Shown here piece after piece: positions 9,759 to 48,132 of a stretch of 48,132 nt of DNA. Source of the stretch: Synergistaceae bacterium (GTDB lineage Bacteria; Synergistota; Synergistia; Synergistales; Synergistaceae); the NCBI GenBank assembly GCA_031257775.1, contig JAIROA010000062.1:1-48132 (forward strand), written 5' to 3'. How positions within the stretch are numbered: the first letter of the stretch is position 1; every line of letters begins with the position of its first letter. Both the position numbers and the translations under genes were made by a program. Below the pieces are notes generated by a model. The model was not told the origin of the DNA. It saw nothing but the letters and a program-made list of their open reading frames with translations, and did not search any database.

Positions 9759-9934
9759 GCTCATGATAGAAGTGTATGAGCGGCCCGATTCGCGCAACGA
9801 GCCAGCAGCCCGGTGCTCTGCGCGGCTTACTGAAATATAGCGCGTTAACAAAAGAACGCTGCGTGGCAAATGTTCCGCGTCCTTGCAATAAGCGCTTTCA
9901 ACGGTTTTAACTTCAGGCCTTTTGTTTAAATATC
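9759..9934 (-). repeat. dispersed repeat, copy 2 (composite)
   Basis: The right part (9820-9934) matches copy 1 at 8443-8564. The left part (9759-9801, read on the minus strand as CTCGTTGCGCGAATCGGGCC and on) matches 27213-27255 at 37 of 43 positions. Copy 2 thus links both other copies into one family. It fills the space between the mtnA stop codon and the promoter of the CsgG-like gene. Confidence 0.6.
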
Positions 9935-9935
9935 G

Positions 9936-11009
9936 CTATAACTCGATAGCCATAAAAATTTTTCTCAGGCTTTCGGAGTAAGGGGGGCGCGCTATGCCGT
10001 ATTCAGTTACTATCGCGCTTATCAGGGCGTTCTCAGTGACATCGAAAGCGGGATTATATATCTTGACGCCCGGAGGGACCATGCGCTCGCGATACCACAT
10101 CTCCGTCACCTCGTTTTCGGGGCGCTCCTCTATTACTATGTCTTCCCCTCTTTTAATGGACATGTCGATTGTGGACATCGGGGCGCACACGTAAAATGGC
10201 ACGCCATAATATTTTGCCAGTATCGCGACTCCGGACGTGCCTATTTTATTGCAGGCGTCGCCGTTTGCCGCCACCCTGTCGCAGCCAACGAACACAGCCT
10301 GAACCCAGCCGTTTTTCATAACCTGGGACGCCATATTGTCGCAGATTACCGTCGTGTCGATGCCGTCCGATACCAGCTCGAAAGAGGAGAGGCGGGCACC
10401 TTGCAGCAGCGGCCTCGTCTCGCCGGCAAACACCTTGAACGCATAGCCTTTCTCGCGCCCGAGATGCATCGGCGCCAGTGCCGTCCCGTATTTAACAGTG
10501 CCGAGCTGCCCGGCGTTGCAGTGCGTGAGAATCCCGTCACCGTCCTTTATGAGGCTCAGGCCGTATTCGCCGATTGCGCGGCAGGCCCTTACATCCTCGT
10601 CCCTTATGGCTATGGCTCGGGCGCGCAGCCTCGTCTTGATTTCGGCGACGGGCATCCCCTTGCAATCCGTTACGGTCTTCTCCATGCGGTCAAGCGCCCA
10701 GAAGAGGTTCACCGCCGTGGGGCGGGCAGTTGCCAGATAATCCTTCGCCTTCCTGAATTCGGAATAAAAAACGCTATAGTCATCCGAATCTATCCCCAGC
10801 GCCGCCAGGTAGACTCCGATGGCCGCGGCCACTCCGATTGCCGGCGCGCCTCTGACCTGAAGCAGATAAATCGCCCTGTGGATATCCTCCTGCCGCCTCA
10901 GCGACAGGATTTCGACGCGCCCAGGCAGTTTAGTCTGGTCTATTATCACGAGAGCCTTCCGCTCGTCGTCCAGTGCCACAGTGTCATAATCCATAATGTT
11001 TCCCGGCAT
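9936..11009 (-). CDS. mtnA: S-methyl-5-thioribose-1-phosphate isomerase
   Basis: Cytosolic enzyme of the methionine salvage pathway that isomerises methylthioribose-1-phosphate to methylthioribulose-1-phosphate. The protein is 357 aa, the usual length. Motifs are RGAPAIGVAAA at 53-63, THCNAGQLGT at 162-171 with catalytic Cys 164, and GCDRVAANGD at 242-251 with catalytic Asp 244, followed by NKIGT. No other salvage gene is next to it. MtnA-type proteins also serve related sugar-phosphate isomerisations, so the partner enzymes elsewhere would decide the exact route. The first ATG (11009) has GGGGA at the right distance. The gene has its own promoter and ends at a dispersed repeat. Confidence 0.95.
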   Translation of the reverse strand: MPGNIMDYDTVALDDERKALVIIDQTKLPGRVEILSLRRQEDIHRAIYLLQVRGAPAIGVAAAIGVYLAALGIDSDDYSVFYSEFRKAKDYLATARPTAVNLFWALDRMEKTVTDCKGMPVAEIKTRLRARAIAIRDEDVRACRAIGEYGLSLIKDGDGILTHCNAGQLGTVKYGTALAPMHLGREKGYAFKVFAGETRPLLQGARLSSFELVSDGIDTTVICDNMASQVMKNGWVQAVFVGCDRVAANGDACNKIGTSGVAILAKYYGVPFYVCAPMSTIDMSIKRGEDIVIEERPENEVTEMWYRERMVPPGVKIYNPAFDVTENALISAIVTEYGIARPPYSESLRKIFMAIEL

Positions 11010-25358: not shown

Positions 25359-26344
25359 TCCGGTTAGGAACGCATCGCGTTCGGCCGATGTGGGGTTATT
25401 TAGTTTTATCGCTGTTTTTGCTAATTTCCGCCGCCTTCGGGCTATATATGGGCGACGTGGAGGTAACGCTCGACAAACTATTTGGAATGCTCATGCTCGG
25501 CCCGTTTGGCAAAACAGACGATGTTTTCCTGCAAAGCGTCGTCTGGCAGATAAGGTTTCCCCGTGTCCTGTCGACTATCATCTCGGGCGCAGTGTTAGCC
25601 GCTTCCGGGGTAGCGTATCAATCTGTCCTACGCAATCCCCTAGCTGAACCATATACGCTTGGCGTTGCTTCCGGAGCGGCATTTGGTGCCGCATGCGCGA
25701 TCATAGCCGGTTTGCCTGGGGTGAGTGCTGCGGCATTCGCCGGCAGCATAGCGTCGCTATTTATCGTGTGGATTCTCGGCGAGAGAAAAAACGCCCCTGA
25801 CATATCGAGAATTATCCTTGCCGGGGTCATCGTGGGCAGCATACTTAGCGCCGGATTGACATTCCTAAAAGCACTCGCCGGTGACAGGGTATCCGTCATT
25901 GTTATATGGCTTATGGGAAGTTTTTCTGCCGCAAACTGGCTTGACGTGTTTCCGCTCACGTTAGGGCTTTTCGTGCTGCTGCTCTTCTGCGCATCAAATA
26001 TGAACGAGATGGATATTATGGCGTCCGGCACAAACGCGGCTTCATTGGGGCTCGACCTATCCACGAGGCGGCTTTTAATCCTTGGCAGCGCCTCCTTTGC
26101 GGTATCGTTCGTCGTCAGCCGGTTCGGGATCATTGGCTTTGTCGGTCTTGTGATCCCGCATATCTTGAGAATATTATTTGGCCCATCGCACAGAAGCCTC
26201 ATCCCCCTCTCACTCATAGGCGGAGGCGCTCTTCTCTGCGCTGCTGATACATTAGCCAAAATGTTGAACGAAATACCAGCGGGAGTTCTGACCGTATTGA
26301 TCGGCGGTCCCGTCTTCTGCGCCATTCTTTGGAATCGAGGCTGA
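25355..26344 (+). CDS. BtuC/FecCD-family ABC transporter permease
   Basis: A 329-aa inner-membrane permease of the iron-chelate/cobalamin importer family with about ten helices. Diagnostic elements are IRFPRVLSTIISGAVLAASG (the RxPR start of the family), NPLAEPYTLGVASGAAFGA, VIVIWLMGSFSAANW, and GFVGLVIPHILRILFGPSHR close to the C-terminus, the loop that engages the ATPase. It overlaps the CobT-like fragment and is followed 4 nt later by its ATPase. No binding protein is encoded nearby. The CobT remnant makes a corrinoid substrate plausible, but heme or a siderophore cannot be excluded. Confidence 0.9.
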   Translation: MIRLGTHRVRPMWGYLVLSLFLLISAAFGLYMGDVEVTLDKLFGMLMLGPFGKTDDVFLQSVVWQIRFPRVLSTIISGAVLAASGVAYQSVLRNPLAEPYTLGVASGAAFGAACAIIAGLPGVSAAAFAGSIASLFIVWILGERKNAPDISRIILAGVIVGSILSAGLTFLKALAGDRVSVIVIWLMGSFSAANWLDVFPLTLGLFVLLLFCASNMNEMDIMASGTNAASLGLDLSTRRLLILGSASFAVSFVVSRFGIIGFVGLVIPHILRILFGPSHRSLIPLSLIGGGALLCAADTLAKMLNEIPAGVLTVLIGGPVFCAILWNRG

Positions 26345-26348
26345 TCAA

Positions 26349-27122
26349 ATGATTCTTTCTATAGATTCCCTCTCCGTTTATCTCGGCTATAAGGAGATAT
26401 TAAAGGGAGGCGCGATGTCATTTACCGCAAATGGCGGAGAAATTATAGGCATTCTCGGGCCGAACGGCAGCGGGAAAAGCACACTGCTCAGGGCAATAAG
26501 CGGCATAATCAAGAATGACGCGGGACGAATCACTTTCGACGGGAAGGACACAGAGCCGTTAAAAACGAAGGAGCGCGCCCGAATATTCGCGCATGTCACC
26601 CAGAGCGAGCATTTCGCCGCTGCCTATACTGTCCTTGAAAGCGTGCTTATGGGGCGATATCCGCATCTAAGGCGGTTTGAAAACTACAGCGCCCAGGATA
26701 TTGAAATAGCCCGCATTTCCATGCGGAGGCTTTCTCTGGAGGGGTTTGAGAAAAGAATAGTCACAGAGCTGTCAGGAGGCGAAAGCGCAAGGGTCGCGAT
26801 AGCAAGGGCTCTTGCCCAGGACACGCCGGTTTTGCTCTTAGACGAGCCAACCGCAGCTCTTGATCCTAAATACTCCCTCAATATAATGCGCGTCGCAAGA
26901 GAGCTTGCGGATGAAGGAAAGATAGTCATTGCGGCCATACACGACATGAACCTTGCCATGCTGGCCACAGACAGGCTTATTTTCCTAAAGGAGGGGACGA
27001 TTATATCAGACAGAGCATCAGGCGATGTGGATGGAAGGATACTGGAATATATTTACGATATCCCATGGGAACTGTTCACGACAGGGACAAATAACCGAAA
27101 AGTCGCCTTCCCTCTTGAGTAG
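26349..27122 (+). CDS. BtuD/FecE-family ABC transporter ATPase
   Basis: A 257-aa cytosolic ATPase that powers the adjacent permease. Walker A is GPNGSGKS (37-44), the Q-loop is HVTQSEHF (82-89), the signature is LSGGE (141-145) and Walker B is LLLDEP (162-167), followed by AAIHDMNLAMLATDR with the switch His. The length is normal for this family. The C-terminal tail (VDGRILEYIYDIPWELF) is typical of BtuD/FecE proteins. It is the last gene of the operon and ends just before a NBS-like palindrome and a large inverted repeat. Confidence 0.92.
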   Translation: MILSIDSLSVYLGYKEILKGGAMSFTANGGEIIGILGPNGSGKSTLLRAISGIIKNDAGRITFDGKDTEPLKTKERARIFAHVTQSEHFAAAYTVLESVLMGRYPHLRRFENYSAQDIEIARISMRRLSLEGFEKRIVTELSGGESARVAIARALAQDTPVLLLDEPTAALDPKYSLNIMRVARELADEGKIVIAAIHDMNLAMLATDRLIFLKEGTIISDRASGDVDGRILEYIYDIPWELFTTGTNNRKVAFPLE

Positions 27123-27143
27123 CCGCGAATTGCCAACACGTAA

Positions 27144-27158
27144 TATTCCCCGGGAATA
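27144..27158. other. palindromic TATTCCC-C-GGGAATA site
   Basis: First of five copies of the motif TATTCCC-N(1-2)-GGGAATA clustered around parABS. It lies just after the ABC ATPase gene and before the large inverted repeat. Confidence 0.55.
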
Positions 27159-27164
27159 ATTTTT

Positions 27165-27314
27165 ATGGCTATCGGGTTACATCAGAAGGCTGCCAAGACG
27201 CTGAGTTCCCGACTCGTTACGCGAATCGGATCGCTCATACATCTCTATCCTGAGCTAATTCGCCACACTCGTTCGATAACTCAGCGTCTTCTGTCGCGCA
27301 AACTATATAGCCAT
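27165..27314. repeat. 150-nt imperfect inverted repeat between converging genes; dispersed repeat copy 3
   Basis: Outer arms ATGGCTAT/ATAGCCAT (27165-27172, 27307-27314) and perfect 13-nt inner arms AAGACGCTGAGTT/AACTCAGCGTCTT (27195-27207, 27278-27290). Arm similarity continues inward around CTCGTT/ACTCG. The centre (27213-27255) matches 9759-9801 at 37 of 43 positions. An 89-codon frame crosses it without a ribosome site. It may be a MITE-like element or a structured RNA, and it could also act as a terminator for both neighbours. Confidence 0.65.
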
Positions 27315-27321
27315 GTAATTT

Positions 27322-30300
27322 TTAGAACGACAAAAGACCGTTTAGCGCGTGTTCTAACACCTGCCCTCCTATTTGGCTTCCGATACCGTTGCTATGTCCA
27401 TCGCCTCCTGGACCGACAGGGAATTCCAAATTGAGCCTTAACATTTCGTCATTTTTTTCTCTCCTCTGCTCCGCTTCGTTAAGCGCGGGAGACAGATCGT
27501 TCTTCGCTGGCTCGGCAATCATTACTTTTTCAAAAGAAACATCAGATGAAGACGCTATCACCGACAGGCTAACATCCCTAAACTCATCTTTCGTGAGACC
27601 TGTTATCGCTCCGCCAAGGAAGTTCTGGAAAGTCAAGCCGGATGTGCCTTGATCCATTGCAGAGGAGACAAGTCCGCGCATGCCTCCGACGAAGCTGTTG
27701 AGCGCCCTGATGTTGACGTTCCCAACACAGAAAAGATTTAAATCTTTCTCCATCGAAATGCTGCCGTCTGCCATGATATACTTGAAAACAGGATCTGCTT
27801 TCGGTGCGGCAACACGGCTTCCAGGCAGAAGATATATGTTTTTACCATCCACGGAAAAAGAAGCGTTCAACACATCGAAACGAAGAGGTTTTCCGCCAAG
27901 GAGCTTCGAGACCGCCGCAGCGCCGCTAAAGCCAGAGACTTCCCCGTTCCTAATCTCAATGCTCCCATCGCCATTCAACATGCTAGTTCTCTTGGTGTTG
28001 CCGGCAAGATGGATGCGCAGATCCACGCTGCCGCTAACTAAGCCCTGTGAGTCAGGAACAAGATCCATCAACGCGGGCGCGGTATCAGCGCTTTTAATGT
28101 ACAGAGTGCCTCCCCAGTCAGACATTTGTATGTCCTTTGCTAGCTGCGCGTTTACCTTTCCCCCATAGGCCAAAGCAGATGAATCCTCAATAAAAACGTA
28201 ACCATCCCCGACCCAGAATGGCGCCTGCAATTCAGAAAGCTTAACGCCCATTACGGAAAGCTTTGGAATCACAGCTTTCCCTTCTCCTTCAAAGGAATTG
28301 ATGCCGCCTCTTCCCGCAAAATCAAAGTCGAGGCTTCCGGCTATATCTATTTTTCTCTCATAGTCTAGCGGTGCCATAAGGCTTCTAATATCCACGCCAC
28401 GCCCTGTTGCGCTAACGGTGCCAATCCACTCGTCGCCAGATTTCACCAGGTCAGCGTCGGCACTAATGAGCCCTCTCCCCACCACAGCCCTCGCCTTGGG
28501 TATGTGAATCTCATCCATATCGCCGCTAAAGGACTCAACACGTATAAATGGCAAAAATAGGCCAAATGCATTGACGCCGTAAAGGAAGCCGTCTGCTTTA
28601 AATTTTGGGTCGGCCAGTGTTCCGGTTATATCGGCGCTGGCGTTCAGAAAACCTTGATATCCGCGAGACTCCGGCATAAATAGCCTTGATATTCTCCCTA
28701 TGTCCGCGCTAGATCCCGTTACCTTTATATCTATAGGAAGCCCATCCGGAGCAATATTATCGAAGCTCCAGTTTCCGGGCCCAGGAAGGTTCGCAACTGT
28801 CCCGCTTATGCTCAGATTGCCGATATTCATTCGGCTTCTAAGCTTTTCGAACGTCAACACGCCATCAACCAGCGCGGCAGAACCATTGATCTCAGAAAAA
28901 TTCAGATTGCTGTAGGAGAGCTTCGAGTCACGTAGGAACACCCTCGCCCCTGTGCTGTTTTTATCATCCCAGAGCCTGAAATCCCCTGCCAGCGCGCCGC
29001 CGATATCCTCTGATATCAAGCCGTTTTCCTTGAGCAAAGATGCCTCCACTCCATAAAAGCTTCCTTTTATATTGTACTCCAATGGAGAGGTTTCCGCGGG
29101 AAGTTTTACGAAGCCTCCTGCGGAGAGCTTTGCACTGCCGAAAGAGCAAGATGAGGAAATTATATCGAGCGAGCTAGTCTGGTAGCTTAATGCCGCGGTG
29201 AAGTCAGATAGATTCTGTCCGCTTACGGCAAGCGACGGGATATTTATGTCGGCTGAGGCCGATGGATCAGAAGGCTTCCCGCTCAAGCTCCAATTCGCTG
29301 AAAGAACGCCGTCGATTCCAAGTCCGCGAAGCTGTGGAGCTAGAACATAGAGCGAGGAAAGGCTTAGATCGGATATTTTCCCGGTGAATTTCAACGATCC
29401 CTGAGAAGCTCCGCCTAAAGCCGCAAGCTGAATGGGCTGATCGCCGGAGGCAGTAAAATTAGCCCCGTCCCATTGGGCGCTGATGCCTTTTATCAAAAGC
29501 CCGCTGTTTGAATATTCGAATTCAGACGATACCTTCTGGAGATTAATATCGCCGCTTACCGCAAGGGCATCAGCGGCAACTGCCCCGGAAATGACGAGAT
29601 CCCGCACTGGCCCTTTAACCTTAGCGCTAAGGCTGAGATCGCCCGATGCGCCGGTATTCTTGATTTCAGGATATTTCCCCGCGATAGATTCAACGGAAAT
29701 GGGCTGCGCTCCTATGTTTAAATCAAGAGCCGTTTCAGGAGCGATGGCGATGTCTCCGTTTGCCCTCACTTCGGCACCTAGGGCTCTGCTAAAAAAAGAC
29801 AGACGCATCTGATAGGTGTTTTTCAAGTCGATCCTGGCGGCGATTTTCTCAAAATCAAAGTCGAAGGCGTTCACCCTGGAAGCGTATATGCCAATCGGGC
29901 CCGACAAAGAATCGGAAGGGCCGCTTATATCGCAAGAAATCAAGTCAATAATGCCATTAATTCCTTCTAACCACGGATATTTATTTGTAATATTATTAAT
30001 ATTCAGGTTTTTAGCGACGAATTTTAAATCCAATTCAGGCTTATCGGTCTTGGAAATATCTATCGAGGCACCGCCTACGAGCGGCGTGTCATAAACGCTC
30101 GTCATCACATCGCTTAATGTCAAGAACCCGTCCGAGTAAGCATAGCGAGCGGCAAGGCTGTCATAAGGTATTTCCCGAATGGCGCCTCTTTCCGAAGTCA
30201 ATTTGCCAGCCACGTGGAGCCCTTCTCGGGACGAGATCCTTAAATTCGTGTCAAACACGCCCTCCATTCCCGCGTCCTTTATGGACGGGAGGATCTCCGC

Positions 30301-30990
30301 TGCTTTAGCGACATCCAGATTCCCTATCGCGCAATCGAGGCTTACAAATGGCGCGACAATACCTTCCGCCGCCACGCTCATCCCATTCCACTCAGCCTCA
30401 AGGCCGGATATCTCTGAAGACTGCGGAAGCGTGACCGCCGAAAGCGTGACCGACGCATCGGAATCCCTGAACTTTCCATCATAAGAGATGCTATATCTGT
30501 TATCATCGATTGTGACCAGCAAGCGACTGAGCTCCGCTTCTCCCCAGGGCGTCGAAAGTAAAGAATCGTACAGTGCAAGCGTCTCTAACGCTGGAGGCCG
30601 GGAAGATTCTTCGCTTTGCGCCGGTAAATGGGCAGATATTGTATCGAAATCAGCGGTCAACCTTCGAAGCGCCAGAATGGAGAGTTTAGGGTTTGCGGTA
30701 AGCACCGAGGATAGCATCGGGCGAATGTCGATCTCATCAGCTTTGGCTATGAGAACTCCTTCATGGATTATACGAATATCGCGCCCTTCCACGCCTGTGA
30801 TAGGATTGCCCGCAATGGAAGCGATTTCAAGCGAATATCCTCCGGCTTCGGTAAAGGCGTCAGCTACTTTCTGAACGACGAGGCCAGCATAAAACGTGGT
30901 TCTGGCTAAGACAAGATAAACTATTCCGCAAAATATCGCCGCGGATATTGCTAGACTCGAAATCACTTTCGTTTTAATGCGTGCCGGCAT
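27322..30990 (-). CDS. large AsmA/TamB-like envelope protein
   Basis: A 1222-aa protein with one N-terminal membrane anchor (ISSLAISAAIFCGIVYLVLA) and a long periplasmic part made of repeated beta-strands. The start after the anchor (GGYSLEIASIAGNPITGVEGRDIRI) is typical of AsmA-like proteins. Repeats of the type SGDINLQKVSSEFEYSN, GSLKFTGKISDLSLSSL and AGSLDFDFAGRGG run along the chain. The C-terminal region DGSIEIRNGEVSGFSGAAAV and FVLNASF-like strands are AsmA/TamB-type. Such proteins bridge the inner and outer membranes in diderms and take part in lipid transport or outer-membrane protein assembly. The start has GCAGGAGG 6 nt before the ATG. The partner TamA/BamA is not in the window. Confidence 0.8.
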   Translation of the reverse strand: MPARIKTKVISSLAISAAIFCGIVYLVLARTTFYAGLVVQKVADAFTEAGGYSLEIASIAGNPITGVEGRDIRIIHEGVLIAKADEIDIRPMLSSVLTANPKLSILALRRLTADFDTISAHLPAQSEESSRPPALETLALYDSLLSTPWGEAELSRLLVTIDDNRYSISYDGKFRDSDASVTLSAVTLPQSSEISGLEAEWNGMSVAAEGIVAPFVSLDCAIGNLDVAKAAEILPSIKDAGMEGVFDTNLRISSREGLHVAGKLTSERGAIREIPYDSLAARYAYSDGFLTLSDVMTSVYDTPLVGGASIDISKTDKPELDLKFVAKNLNINNITNKYPWLEGINGIIDLISCDISGPSDSLSGPIGIYASRVNAFDFDFEKIAARIDLKNTYQMRLSFFSRALGAEVRANGDIAIAPETALDLNIGAQPISVESIAGKYPEIKNTGASGDLSLSAKVKGPVRDLVISGAVAADALAVSGDINLQKVSSEFEYSNSGLLIKGISAQWDGANFTASGDQPIQLAALGGASQGSLKFTGKISDLSLSSLYVLAPQLRGLGIDGVLSANWSLSGKPSDPSASADINIPSLAVSGQNLSDFTAALSYQTSSLDIISSSCSFGSAKLSAGGFVKLPAETSPLEYNIKGSFYGVEASLLKENGLISEDIGGALAGDFRLWDDKNSTGARVFLRDSKLSYSNLNFSEINGSAALVDGVLTFEKLRSRMNIGNLSISGTVANLPGPGNWSFDNIAPDGLPIDIKVTGSSADIGRISRLFMPESRGYQGFLNASADITGTLADPKFKADGFLYGVNAFGLFLPFIRVESFSGDMDEIHIPKARAVVGRGLISADADLVKSGDEWIGTVSATGRGVDIRSLMAPLDYERKIDIAGSLDFDFAGRGGINSFEGEGKAVIPKLSVMGVKLSELQAPFWVGDGYVFIEDSSALAYGGKVNAQLAKDIQMSDWGGTLYIKSADTAPALMDLVPDSQGLVSGSVDLRIHLAGNTKRTSMLNGDGSIEIRNGEVSGFSGAAAVSKLLGGKPLRFDVLNASFSVDGKNIYLLPGSRVAAPKADPVFKYIMADGSISMEKDLNLFCVGNVNIRALNSFVGGMRGLVSSAMDQGTSGLTFQNFLGGAITGLTKDEFRDVSLSVIASSSDVSFEKVMIAEPAKNDLSPALNEAEQRREKNDEMLRLNLEFPVGPGGDGHSNGIGSQIGGQVLEHALNGLLSF

Positions 30991-36718: not shown

Positions 36719-39700
36719 TCACCGCTTCTTTATGGTAATCGATGAAGTAGGGCCTATGCTTTTAATTCCCGGGGAATACATTCCTTCCGCGTATATTGGC
36801 GGGAGAGTGAATTCCCCGACCGTGACAGCTCGCATTGAAAATTTCCATGTGAACTTTTTGCCGACTCTCTCAAGGAAAACCAGCAGCCTATCGTCTCTCA
36901 TCTCATAGTGCATCCCGTAGATTTCTTCGTCCTGAGAATAGGGATCATTTTCAGCGGGATCCATCAGCCTTGGATTTTCTATTTCGATACCACCGGCCAG
37001 AGGCAAGGAAATAGCTATATTCCTGACTTCTCCGGAAAATGGCTCCACTGTTATCCGGCCCTGTATACGTTCTCCCTGCGCGACACTTGGCGCGGACGGA
37101 AGCGTATTCCCATCGGACGATAAATACTGAACACTTACGCGCATACCCATGTCCTGAGCAGACGGCGCTTTTAACGGAACGCCGTTTGCAACCCAGTAAA
37201 CGTATCCATTTCCTGTCCCGTTATTTTTAACGGTTAGCTCATTCATTTGTTCGTCTATTCTAGAACTTATTGCCTTGTCTTGGCTTGTTACGGCTATAGT
37301 ATTTTCACCCTGCCCGAGTAGTTCAAGAATTGCCGTTCCTGAAGCGGAATTATGCGCAAAAAAATCCGCTAACGCGGGAAGCGCGAAACCTAATTCCTGG
37401 GTTGTGAGGTATTTATTGCCCTTGAGGGAATCAAGCAAATTCGACGCGGCGTTTACGGCATTGGCAGATGAAGGTTCCAGCTCATTCCATGCCAGGAGAG
37501 AAAGCGCCAAGTTTCTCGTGCTGGAATCAAAATTAGGCTTTTCCGATTCAGGCTGATTTTTTGGCGTTAGAGCGGGCAGACTGTCACCCAAAATAGAGCG
37601 CGCGACTGCTTTTTCACCGGATCTCGCGTAAGCCGCCGCAAGAAAATAACGGCCGTACGCAGGAATAGAAGAAATGTTATCCCTGAGATATGACATCCAT
37701 GCAAGGGGAGGTTCCTCCTTAAGAGAAATTACGTAGGAGGCGTAAGCCATCTGCCCCAGAGATGACGAGTATAACGTGTCTGTATATCCTTGCGGAACGG
37801 ACGAAATCAACAGCCTCAAGTTGTTCATTGCCGAGGAGAGAGTCTCTTTCGGCACAGTGACCCCGCGTTTTTCACAAGCGATTAAAAAATGAGTCGCAAA
37901 AACACTGGCCCACTTGGACTCACCGGTACCAGGCCACATTGAGAACGATCCGTAGTAGTTCTGCAAAGACTGAATGATGGCTATACGTTTCGCAAGCGCC
38001 GCCTCGATCTGGGAGAGGGTCGCCAGATTCGGGTCTATAGCTCTGACCAGATCAGGCTGAGAGAGAAGCGCCCACCCGGAAGAAGTCGTCTGTTCAAGGC
38101 ATCCATAGGGATAGTAAAGCAAAAAATCGAGCGCTTCAGTGATCCCAATCTCCGGAAGGCCGGACAAGGTCACGCTTGCTCGCCGCGTGCCCGGCATCAA
38201 ATCGCTGGGAAGTTGTATTTTTGCCTCGTCGTTCGGCTTTACGACAAGTCCGCCGCCTTCCGTGACACTGGAAAACGGAGGGCGAACCGGCATTTCCGTA
38301 AGCACTCGGGTTGTCCCTCCGGGGTAACGCGCCACAGCGGAGATTTTGGACACCCCAAACCCCGCGTCGGCGCCTAGTGAAAGAGGAATGACGAACGCCC
38401 TATCAATCCCCGGCAGGGAAAGACTCGTTGTCATGGTTTTTCTCATGTCTCCCGAAGCGGTTCGCGTTCCGGCTATAGAAAGAGGTCCGTCCAGCGTCAC
38501 TTCAAGGTCGACGTCGAGGGAAGCTCCCGTCTTATTGAAGAGCATTATCTGGGACTCAAACAAATCTCCCGGCGCAACCGCGCGAGGAAGCGAATGTTCC
38601 AGGACGACGCTGTCGGATACAGTGAAAAATTCCTCCCCGGCACCGAAGGCGTTCTTCGAGGCCGCTACCGCCATCAAGCGCGCCCGTCCAGAAAATTCTG
38701 GAATAGCAAATGAGAAATTGGCATTTCCCTTATTATCTGTAACAATTTTTTGACATAGAGTTAAAATTTCAAACCTCTTAGCCCTCACAGGAGATAGAGA
38801 GACATTGCCCAGAACGCTCTCATCGGCAACGCCGCCGCCGGGTTTCAGAAGTTTCAGGTCGTCCTTTGGAATCGGTATGAGCTGATCATAAACGTCATAC
38901 GTAAACATACCGAGAGCGCGGCGCTTTGTGAAGTAGAGGAATGGGTTTGGCGTTTCGAATCTGGTTAAATCAAGAACTCCGTCATCCACCAACATAAGCG
39001 TGACCTCTCCCATTACTCCATTTCCCGCGCTATCCGTCAGCTTGACGGAGAAGTCATTTTTGGCTCCGGGTTTGAGTTTTTGTGGCACCGTTATATCCAC
39101 GCCCAAGGCATACCGTGACATATCGACATTGAGCGGAACGGCGCCAAAAGCGCGGTGAGCGCTCCAGGTCTCTTCCCGCGACGCGGCTGGCCGAACCAGG
39201 TGCGCCGTCACCCATGAATTTGGCGACATTTCTTCCGTGACTTCCCAGGCAAATTCAGCTCCTTTTTCTCTGGTGACAGCCACTTCATAGTAGAGAGTCT
39301 TGTCTGTATCAACTGTAAGGAGAACCATGCCGTCAAAATTGCCTGATATCCTAGCGCTTGCTTTTTCACCGGGGCTGTAGGCATTTTTATCCAGTTTTAT
39401 ATCGAGAGTCTCCGCCTGTACCGCACCGGTATCTCCATACCGCCATCTTTGATCCCCGACCCAGAAGGTTAGTGAAGCGGAAGCATCGGAACTTTCAAGC
39501 GTGATCCGATAGTATCCGTATGATGGGAACTTCACTTCCGCCAGCGCTTTGCCGTTATCAAAACGGATCTTTATTTTTTCAAACCCGTCTACCGGCATCA
39601 ACTCTCTGGCTATCTCGGTGTGCCGGCCTTCTTCGTCAGTAGTCGTAATGTACCTATTTTCTACCTTGGAAAGAGAAAACTCCGCTTCCGGCGAAAGCAA

Positions 39701-43712: not shown

Positions 43713-43972
43713 TACAAGCCCCCCAAATTATTTAAGAATACTTAGAATATGGCCCGCACGATTTTAACATGAATATGCCGGGCCAACGCCGCCCTTTTAT
43801 CTGATTTTGCAGAGCAAGAAGTGTTTATTGCTAATGACTTTTATTGACCTTAACTCCTTCTCTCGGCGGAATCTTCATAAAAATCCATATAGCCAAGACG
43901 GGGCGCGGCGAAAGCAATGTTCGTCCAGAGAGTTTCCAAACATGCGGTTAAATTCGAAAAATAAGGCCAAAT

Positions 43973-44013
43973 AAAAACGCCGAGTGAAATTTCCAATTTC
44001 ACTCGGCGTTTTT
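43973..44013. terminator. strong bidirectional terminator downstream of ftsZ
   Basis: Perfect 18-bp stem AAAAACGCCGAGTGAAAT/ATTTCACTCGGCGTTTTT around the loop TTCCA. It lies 31 nt past the ftsZ stop. The rest of the 43713-43972 spacer, upstream of bioY, shows no gene. Confidence 0.92.
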
Positions 44014-44044
44014 ATTCTCTTTGTCCATCAATTTATATATTTTA

Positions 44045-47916: not shown

Positions 47917-48040
47917 ATTCCGATTCTAAATCAGAATGAACCATAATTTGATTTAGAATCGGAATAGCGCAACGCAATGTTGCGCCCAACACGAAGTGTT
48001 GAGGTTTTTTCCAAATCAACTCGTCTGTTATGAGTTGATT
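47917..48040. repeat. row of four hairpins at the window end
   Basis: Four adjacent inverted repeats. H1: 17-bp perfect stem (47917-47933 with 47949-47965, starting ATTCCGATTCTAAATCA). H2: GCGCAAC/GTTGCGC (47967-47985). H3: CAACAC/GTGTTG (47987-48001), followed by six T (48005-48010). H4: AATCAACTC/GAGTTGATT (48014-48040). H3 with the T tract can act as a terminator for the DUF2156 gene. The others have no obvious role. No gene is seen between 47822 and the window end. Confidence 0.7.
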
Positions 48041-48132
48041 GGGAATTAGAATTAGAGCTGTCAAAATAGTGTGAATGACGCCTGACCAAATTAAATTAAT
48101 GTGGCTGTTGAGTTATCTAAGTAAAGCGCGCA

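Follow-up and report, generated by a model that had tools for sequence, protein, structure and literature searches.

An old MITE relic, probably of an IS1595-driven family, in a Synergistaceae genome: family copies carry a conserved, folded body resembling CsrA-binding RNA

The inverted repeat between two converging genes at positions 27165–27315 of the window (the whole 48,132-nucleotide stretch of Synergistaceae DNA analysed here) is best read as an old, decaying MITE whose ends are recognised by an IS1595 transposase from elsewhere, which moves the element and leaves an 8-bp AT-rich duplication; we put the probability of this reading at roughly 0.9. The family to which it belongs is new among MITEs but of a familiar type, with IS1595 as its probable driver. 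It is of wider interest than a new MITE because its conserved body looks like a CsrA-binding RNA. The preliminary description had left open a MITE-like element or a structured RNA, and both suggestions found support and may hold at once, since a MITE can have a body with the look of a structured RNA module, as this one does.

The window copy is 151 bp long, with ends at 27165 (or 27164) and 27315, which refines the earlier span of 27165–27314, and is given here in the family reference 'plus' orientation; the body model built for the family (R1) matches it at 27193–27291 (E 2.8e-13). On direct reading it is flanked by two copies of the 8-bp target-site duplication TAATTTTT. For the left copy (27157–27164) the frame is uncertain by a single base that could equally be the repeat's terminal T, and the right copy (27316–27323) overlaps two bases of the stop codon of the AsmA-like gene described below; 8-bp duplications also flank relatives, so that the search for target-site duplications was positive. 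The terminal inverted repeats lie at 27165–27185 (plus strand) and 27295–27315 (minus strand). Inside them, the 13-nt arm at 27195–27207 is the perfect complement of 27278–27290, within longer inner arms (27195–27212 with 27273–27290) that are 89% complementary, and outer arms pair 27158–27172 with 27307–27321. The inverted repeat reported earlier, with its perfect 13-nt arms and additional outer arms, is thus real, and on either strand the fold of the 171-nt region is more stable than that of any of 200 shuffles (z −3.1 and −4.3). A conserved core occupies 27213–27255 (plus strand), as judged by alignment and by the conservation comparisons below, and contains a core hairpin at 27233–27255 whose minus strand carries AGGA (27251–27248), the sole A(N)GGA site in this copy. 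The second of two hairpins present in the family has been lost through a deletion, and the only open reading frame over the element is one of 89 amino acids, with no transposase gene. The window copy is an old, decayed relic, and is probably inert, doing nothing essential.

The search for other copies was also positive. BLAST of the genome from which the window comes (G000; 2.12 Mb in 144 contigs) gave 14 places including the window copy, the best of the 13 further matches at E 3e-21, and a search of 60 genomes gave matches in five, namely G000, three congeners and G029, which belongs to another genus of the same family. Body model R1, run on 14 genomes, found 5 places in G000 (E ≤ 0.01), 9 in G001, 2 in G002, 22 in G069, 3 in G070 and 10 in G074; in G003 it returned 70 rows, 17 of them the reverse reading of a listed place, leaving 53 places, and in G029 six rows, two of them likewise reverse readings, with no match in the other six genomes. 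G069, G070 and G074 were not used in building the model, and their elements were found with E values down to 1.5e-14. G003 holds young, intact copies of about 188 bp, with ends TATGACTATCCAATTGTCTCA and perfect 8-bp target duplications; few of the copies in G000 retain both ends. Across the family the elements measure 151–225 bp, with ends of about 21–25 bp, and a perfect 8-bp duplication at zero offset accompanies 22 of 54 candidate end pairs, a denominator that takes in false short pairs and one pair lacking its right flank. The family thus shows terminal inverted repeats, duplications of constant length and multiple short, dispersed copies free of a transposase gene. ERIC, Correia and RUP-type repeats are likewise short, palindromic, dispersed and intergenic, with other hosts, termini and target duplications.

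Beyond these genomes, a pattern for the core matched 33 stretches of genome contigs, 29 of them in Synergistaceae MAGs and four in unrelated bacteria (one betaproteobacterium, two Pseudomonas and one Mycolicibacterium), the latter being about what chance would give by a hand estimate. The terminal pattern was present in 18 of 52 Synergistaceae genomes. Viral carriage was considered and set aside, the core pattern having no match in viral contigs.

The preliminary description had placed the centre of the hairpin in one repeat family with positions 9759–9801 of the window, and the match is confirmed at 37 of 43 positions (86.047% over 43) on the opposite strand. Judged by this alignment, the 9.8-kb core is a degenerate relative of the MITE in the other orientation; R1 does not match it at E ≤ 0.01. 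The 43-nt core is common to both places because few segments of the family body are as well conserved. That the inner arms are unrecognisable at 9.8 kb also stood, yet a 26-nt piece of outer terminus is found nearby at 9939–9964 (minus strand; 24 of 26 positions like 27154–27179), and is possibly the end of this degenerate relative, or of another.

The genes on either side converge, as had been described. An ABC transporter ATPase (26349–27122, plus strand; PF00005, E 1e-33) ends at 27122, and an AsmA/YhdP-like gene (27322–30990, minus strand; three Pfam matches, all below the curated cut-off) has its stop codon at 27322–27324. The insertion adjoins this stop codon and leaves it intact. If transcription reaches that far, the minus strand of the element would form part of the 3′ end of the AsmA-like mRNA. 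The syntenic space in two congeners is an empty site, and the insertion is therefore polymorphic: in G003, window segments 26001–27085 and 27317–28491 align to a single stretch in which some 72 nt separate them, against 231 in the window, and the orthologous intergenic space of G002 has its own sequence and no element.

The convergent setting could also mean that the element terminates transcription of the two genes from both directions, or directs the processing of their 3′ ends. Among 15 copies with enough flank, eight lie between convergent, five between tandem and one between divergent open reading frames, one being inside a crude ORF call, and the right duplication yields a T run; both observations suit such a role. 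We nevertheless consider it improbable, since a search of 27050–27420 gave no terminator-like site (and no promoter pattern either), the congeners do without the element at the same place, and a conserved palindrome alongside, ATTCCCCGGGAAT, is more likely to be a native signal. This palindrome, at window positions 27145–27157 and 36765–36777, has 8 matches with at most two mismatches where 2.07 are expected and is conserved beside the empty site in both G002 and G003; it is possibly a regulatory or terminator-like site.

The assignment to IS1595 comes from the ends. The proposed course of events is that an IS1595-family DDE transposase made elsewhere would recognise the terminal repeats of the MITE, which in intact relatives are close to TATGACTATCNARTTGYCTCA, and would move the gene-less element in trans, duplicating 8 bp of AT-rich target. 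IS1595 is the probable driver because elements with IS1595 transposases in the same bacteria share near-identical ends (up to 20 of 21 positions). Two contigs fetched by the terminal repeats held IS1595-transposase-like pieces, and a search for PF12762 found this domain in 4 of 12 genomes. G065 holds a complete 946-bp IS with ends TATGACTATCCAACTAACTCA and TATGACTATCCAATTAACTCA (of TATGACTATCCAAYTAACTCA type) and an open frame of 307 codons (PF12762, 5e-26; PF12760, 6e-18). In a G070 contig the end TATGACTATCAAGTTGCGTCA adjoins the start of PF12760 (1.2e-11); in a G001 contig the end TATGGCTATCCAATTAGCTCA adjoins a PF12762 fragment (4.4e-9); and in G019 an end adjoins an IS1595 fragment that scores below the cut-off (E 0.037). 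The MITE ends of G003 are identical to the IS1595 ends of these four genomes at 17–20 of 21 positions. Termini are thus shared with IS1595 elements at the level of the family; the ends of the window copy itself match at best 16 of 21 (left) and 14 of 21 (right), values reached by shuffled ends with frequencies of 2e-5 and 3.6e-4.

Several results count against the drive by IS1595. Besides the low score of the G019 fragment and the scarcity of G000 copies with both ends, PF12762 was not found in G003, the genome with the youngest copies, in the 12-genome search, and the complete IS of G065 has no clear target duplication. The IS1595 element of the own genome (G000:C105, locus L168, 1365–2373) has ends TATGGTTATTCCMTTTACTAA and an 8-bp duplication, ATAATAAA; its ends agree with the left end of the window copy at only 12 of 21 positions and its transposase contains an in-frame TGA, both of which count against it as the driver of that copy. 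Among 20 regions around unpaired termini in G003 and G001, no autonomous copy was recognised except in G001:C57, which has a transposase fragment. An 8-bp duplication is also what has been published for a MITE of Haloquadratum walsbyi related to ISHwa6, which is described in the portion of the report available to us as 165 bp long with 25-bp inverted repeats and 8-bp direct repeats and is placed in family IS1595 (PMC3852290). The Synergistaceae elements resemble it in their length, their ends of about 21–25 bp and their 8-bp duplications; they differ in belonging to another phylum and in having a body that folds and is conserved across genera, a feature that this portion of the report does not mention for the ISHwa6 MITE. 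Membership of the family among MITEs moved by IS1595 transposases is, on these comparisons of ends and duplications, well supported, and we infer from them the movement itself, IS1595 transposases presumably acting in trans.

A MITE is commonly regarded as a pair of ends around a stretch that has no meaning. In this family that stretch ranks with the best conserved parts, both between genera and among the copies of one genome, and it keeps both a fold and a one-stranded motif of a protein-binding type. The family body folds into a rod closed by hairpins. One fold is common to 12 elements from four genomes, with standard pairs in 95.2% of 476 cells, and pairing falls to 27–37% when the partners are slid by 1–3 columns. 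The covariation analysis was positive: 19 of 41 pairs have changed on both sides, a count that none of 500 shuffles reached (their mean was 11.0), and so have 25 of 55 pairs in the full-length alignment. The arms of an element pair better with each other than with the best arm from a foreign genome in 22 of 24 representatives, both G074 elements being the exceptions.

In most of our alignments the core hairpin is better conserved than the ends. The consensus of the G003 copies is identical at 23 of 23 core-hairpin positions to G001 element L019 (the two ends at 17/22 and 18/22) and at 21 of 23 to the window copy (ends 14/22 and 13/22); for three G029 elements the gap is smaller (core hairpin 18–20/23, ends 13–17/22). 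Within G003 itself, 23 full-length copies (of about 53 places) have variable columns at 8 of 54 core positions versus 59 of 135 elsewhere (Fisher p 1e-4). Assembly smoothing of the centre of a repeat could mimic core conservation in G003, but a neighbouring hairpin is nearly as central and yet variable (8 of 18 columns), which makes this less likely.

Complementary arms may also be kept without any RNA function. In quasipalindrome correction, one arm is copied onto the other through hairpin-templated repair or through template switching at replication forks, and this would explain compensatory arm changes in a selfish element. We regard it as a plausible account of the covariation, though one with the odds somewhat against it. 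In the 23 G003 copies, conservation differs little between paired and unpaired sites (divergence 4.1% and 4.8%), which accords with arm correction and counts against structural constraint on single copies, and the mismatch cells (39 A-C, 24 G-T) have no clear strand preference, as arm correction would also have it. However, it leaves unexplained the conservation of core and loops, both across genera and within copies (the 8/54 versus 59/135 above), and the one-strand bias of A(N)GGA.

This bias is the basis of a further reading, which adds to the MITE reading and does not replace it: that the body is also a functional RNA, with minus-strand transcripts (for example 3′ UTRs) whose predicted CsrA-binding A(N)GGA loops act as a site or a sponge. 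We hold it only tentatively. Although the elements are largely palindromic, the minus strands of 24 representatives hold 57 A(N)GGA sites and their plus strands 2. Of 256 patterns of this form, none but A(N)GGA occurs in 23 or more of the 24 elements on one strand while occurring in 3 or fewer on the other; five of the 256 exceed A(N)GGA in raw strand excess. Twenty later-fetched elements have 35 versus 2 sites, in 19 of 20 versus 2 of 20 elements (third of 256 by element excess); all these counts overstate independence because the elements share descent. The GGA is unpaired with a mean probability of 0.68 (background 0.30), above 0.5 at 39 of the 57 sites, and the stems around the GGA loops vary between copies (gggcaAGGAtgccc, cgacaTGGAtgtcg, agcacATGGAAgtgct). 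One-strand hairpin loops with A(N)GGA are a property of the family; the window copy keeps one such site. A published SELEX consensus for CsrA, RUACARGGAUGU, has its GGA in a hairpin loop that is mostly a hexaloop (PMC7652899), and CCGAC-AAGGAT-GTCGG in some G069 copies is the hexaloop form of it. Core conservation likewise speaks for this reading; against it stand the equal divergence of paired and unpaired sites in G003, the promoter search at 27050–27420 noted above, and three G069 representatives with CGA instead of GGA in one loop. A csrA gene is present in 10 of 14 genomes, G000 included, and was not found in the element-carrying G070 and G074 assemblies, which are 84% and 82% complete.

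Comparison with Rfam points in the same direction below the level of formal recognition. At curated cut-offs the whole window has no match, and the window site has none up to E 5. A permissive scan of seven loci matched RsmY to a G069 element (L135; E 6e-4, or 9e-5 when scanned alone) and TwoAYGGAY to a G003 element (E 0.77), both on the family minus strand and both from clan CL00106; two other matches were to a CRISPR-repeat model, and RsmY did not match elements L132, L134, L136, L137 and L138 of the same G069. A further 20 loci gave six matches. Three were to TwoAYGGAY, the best of them (E 0.062) spanning the entire model; the remaining three, to a snoRNA model once and a microRNA model twice, are chance-like. 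Searched against 14 whole genomes (E ≤ 1), TwoAYGGAY (RF01731) hit four places, all four MITE copies and none above the cut-off, and 14 control genomes gave no match to it. No match reached its gathering score (26.8 of 57 for RsmY; at best 31.5 of 43). That palindromes of this kind also weakly match microRNA and CRISPR-repeat models weighs against reading these likenesses as CsrA binding. Separately, three elements of 121 bp in G014 (L141–L143) resemble the family in their ends and their 8-bp duplications but lack the body, and two of them weakly match a microRNA model, a caution on Rfam matches to palindromic MITEs in general.

CsrA binding has been put forward for TwoAYGGAY (PMC4333381), and the MITE family shares with this motif an outer stem around two GGA-loop hairpins (model hairpin CCGGACAUGGAUGUCCGG, MITE hairpin CCGACAUGGAUGUCGG). 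It differs in that the MITE matches stay below the gathering score and that TwoAYGGAY is not termed a transposon in the accessible parts of PMC4333381 and PMC2864571, the latter listing it for human gut, gamma-Proteobacteria and Clostridiales. With RsmY and CsrB-type sRNAs the family has in common one-strand GGA motifs in hairpin loops, and the RsmY model spans one G069 copy at full length; unlike these, the copy matched by RsmY scores 26.8 where 57 is required, and the copies of the family are dispersed and mobile instead of forming one gene. The family body looks, from its motifs and predicted fold, like a CsrA-binding RNA, and actual binding is conceivable, if rather doubtful. The same guarded expectation extends to the broader proposal that IS1595-driven Synergistaceae MITEs with a covarying RNA module scatter predicted CsrA sites, as a mobile sponge or a 3′-UTR tag. 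CsrA-binding sRNAs were first identified in Gammaproteobacteria (PMC4333381); were CsrA to bind here, a mobile element would be seeding the target sites of a global regulator into a genome outside that class. The portions of the literature on CsrA or RsmA and miniature inverted-repeat elements available to us, PMC4383904 included, describe no such element, and a search for Synergistetes with MITEs found no paper, a looser search giving only unrelated papers among the matches listed.

Two other readings of the body were rejected. The minus strand has a local resemblance, by eye, to a tRNA D-arm (AGCTCAGGATAGAG), which would suggest a tRNA-derived or tRNA-like element; this is extremely unlikely, as ARAGORN finds no tRNA across the window, Rfam has no match at the site and the fold is without an anticodon or T arm. 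A coding role was considered because several copies have an open frame on the core's plus strand (RIGSLIHL...), but the encoded amino acids change with the base differences between genomes, and in the Po218 copy a stop codon interrupts that frame.

Elsewhere in the window, positions 43970–44016 hold an inverted repeat whose 22-nt arms match perfectly across a 3-nt spacer, and a second dispersed palindromic repeat has a copy at 47917–48052, with ends ATTCTAATTCCAAATCAA and ATTCCGATTCTAAATCAA. This second repeat is probably another MITE; its ends are matched 98 times in the own genome, 17 times in G001 and 3 times in G003, and it is far commoner here than the 27165–27315 family. At one locus of the own genome (L167; G000:C60:4250-4640) it is nested within a copy of the 27165–27315 family, and the second family would therefore have moved later.
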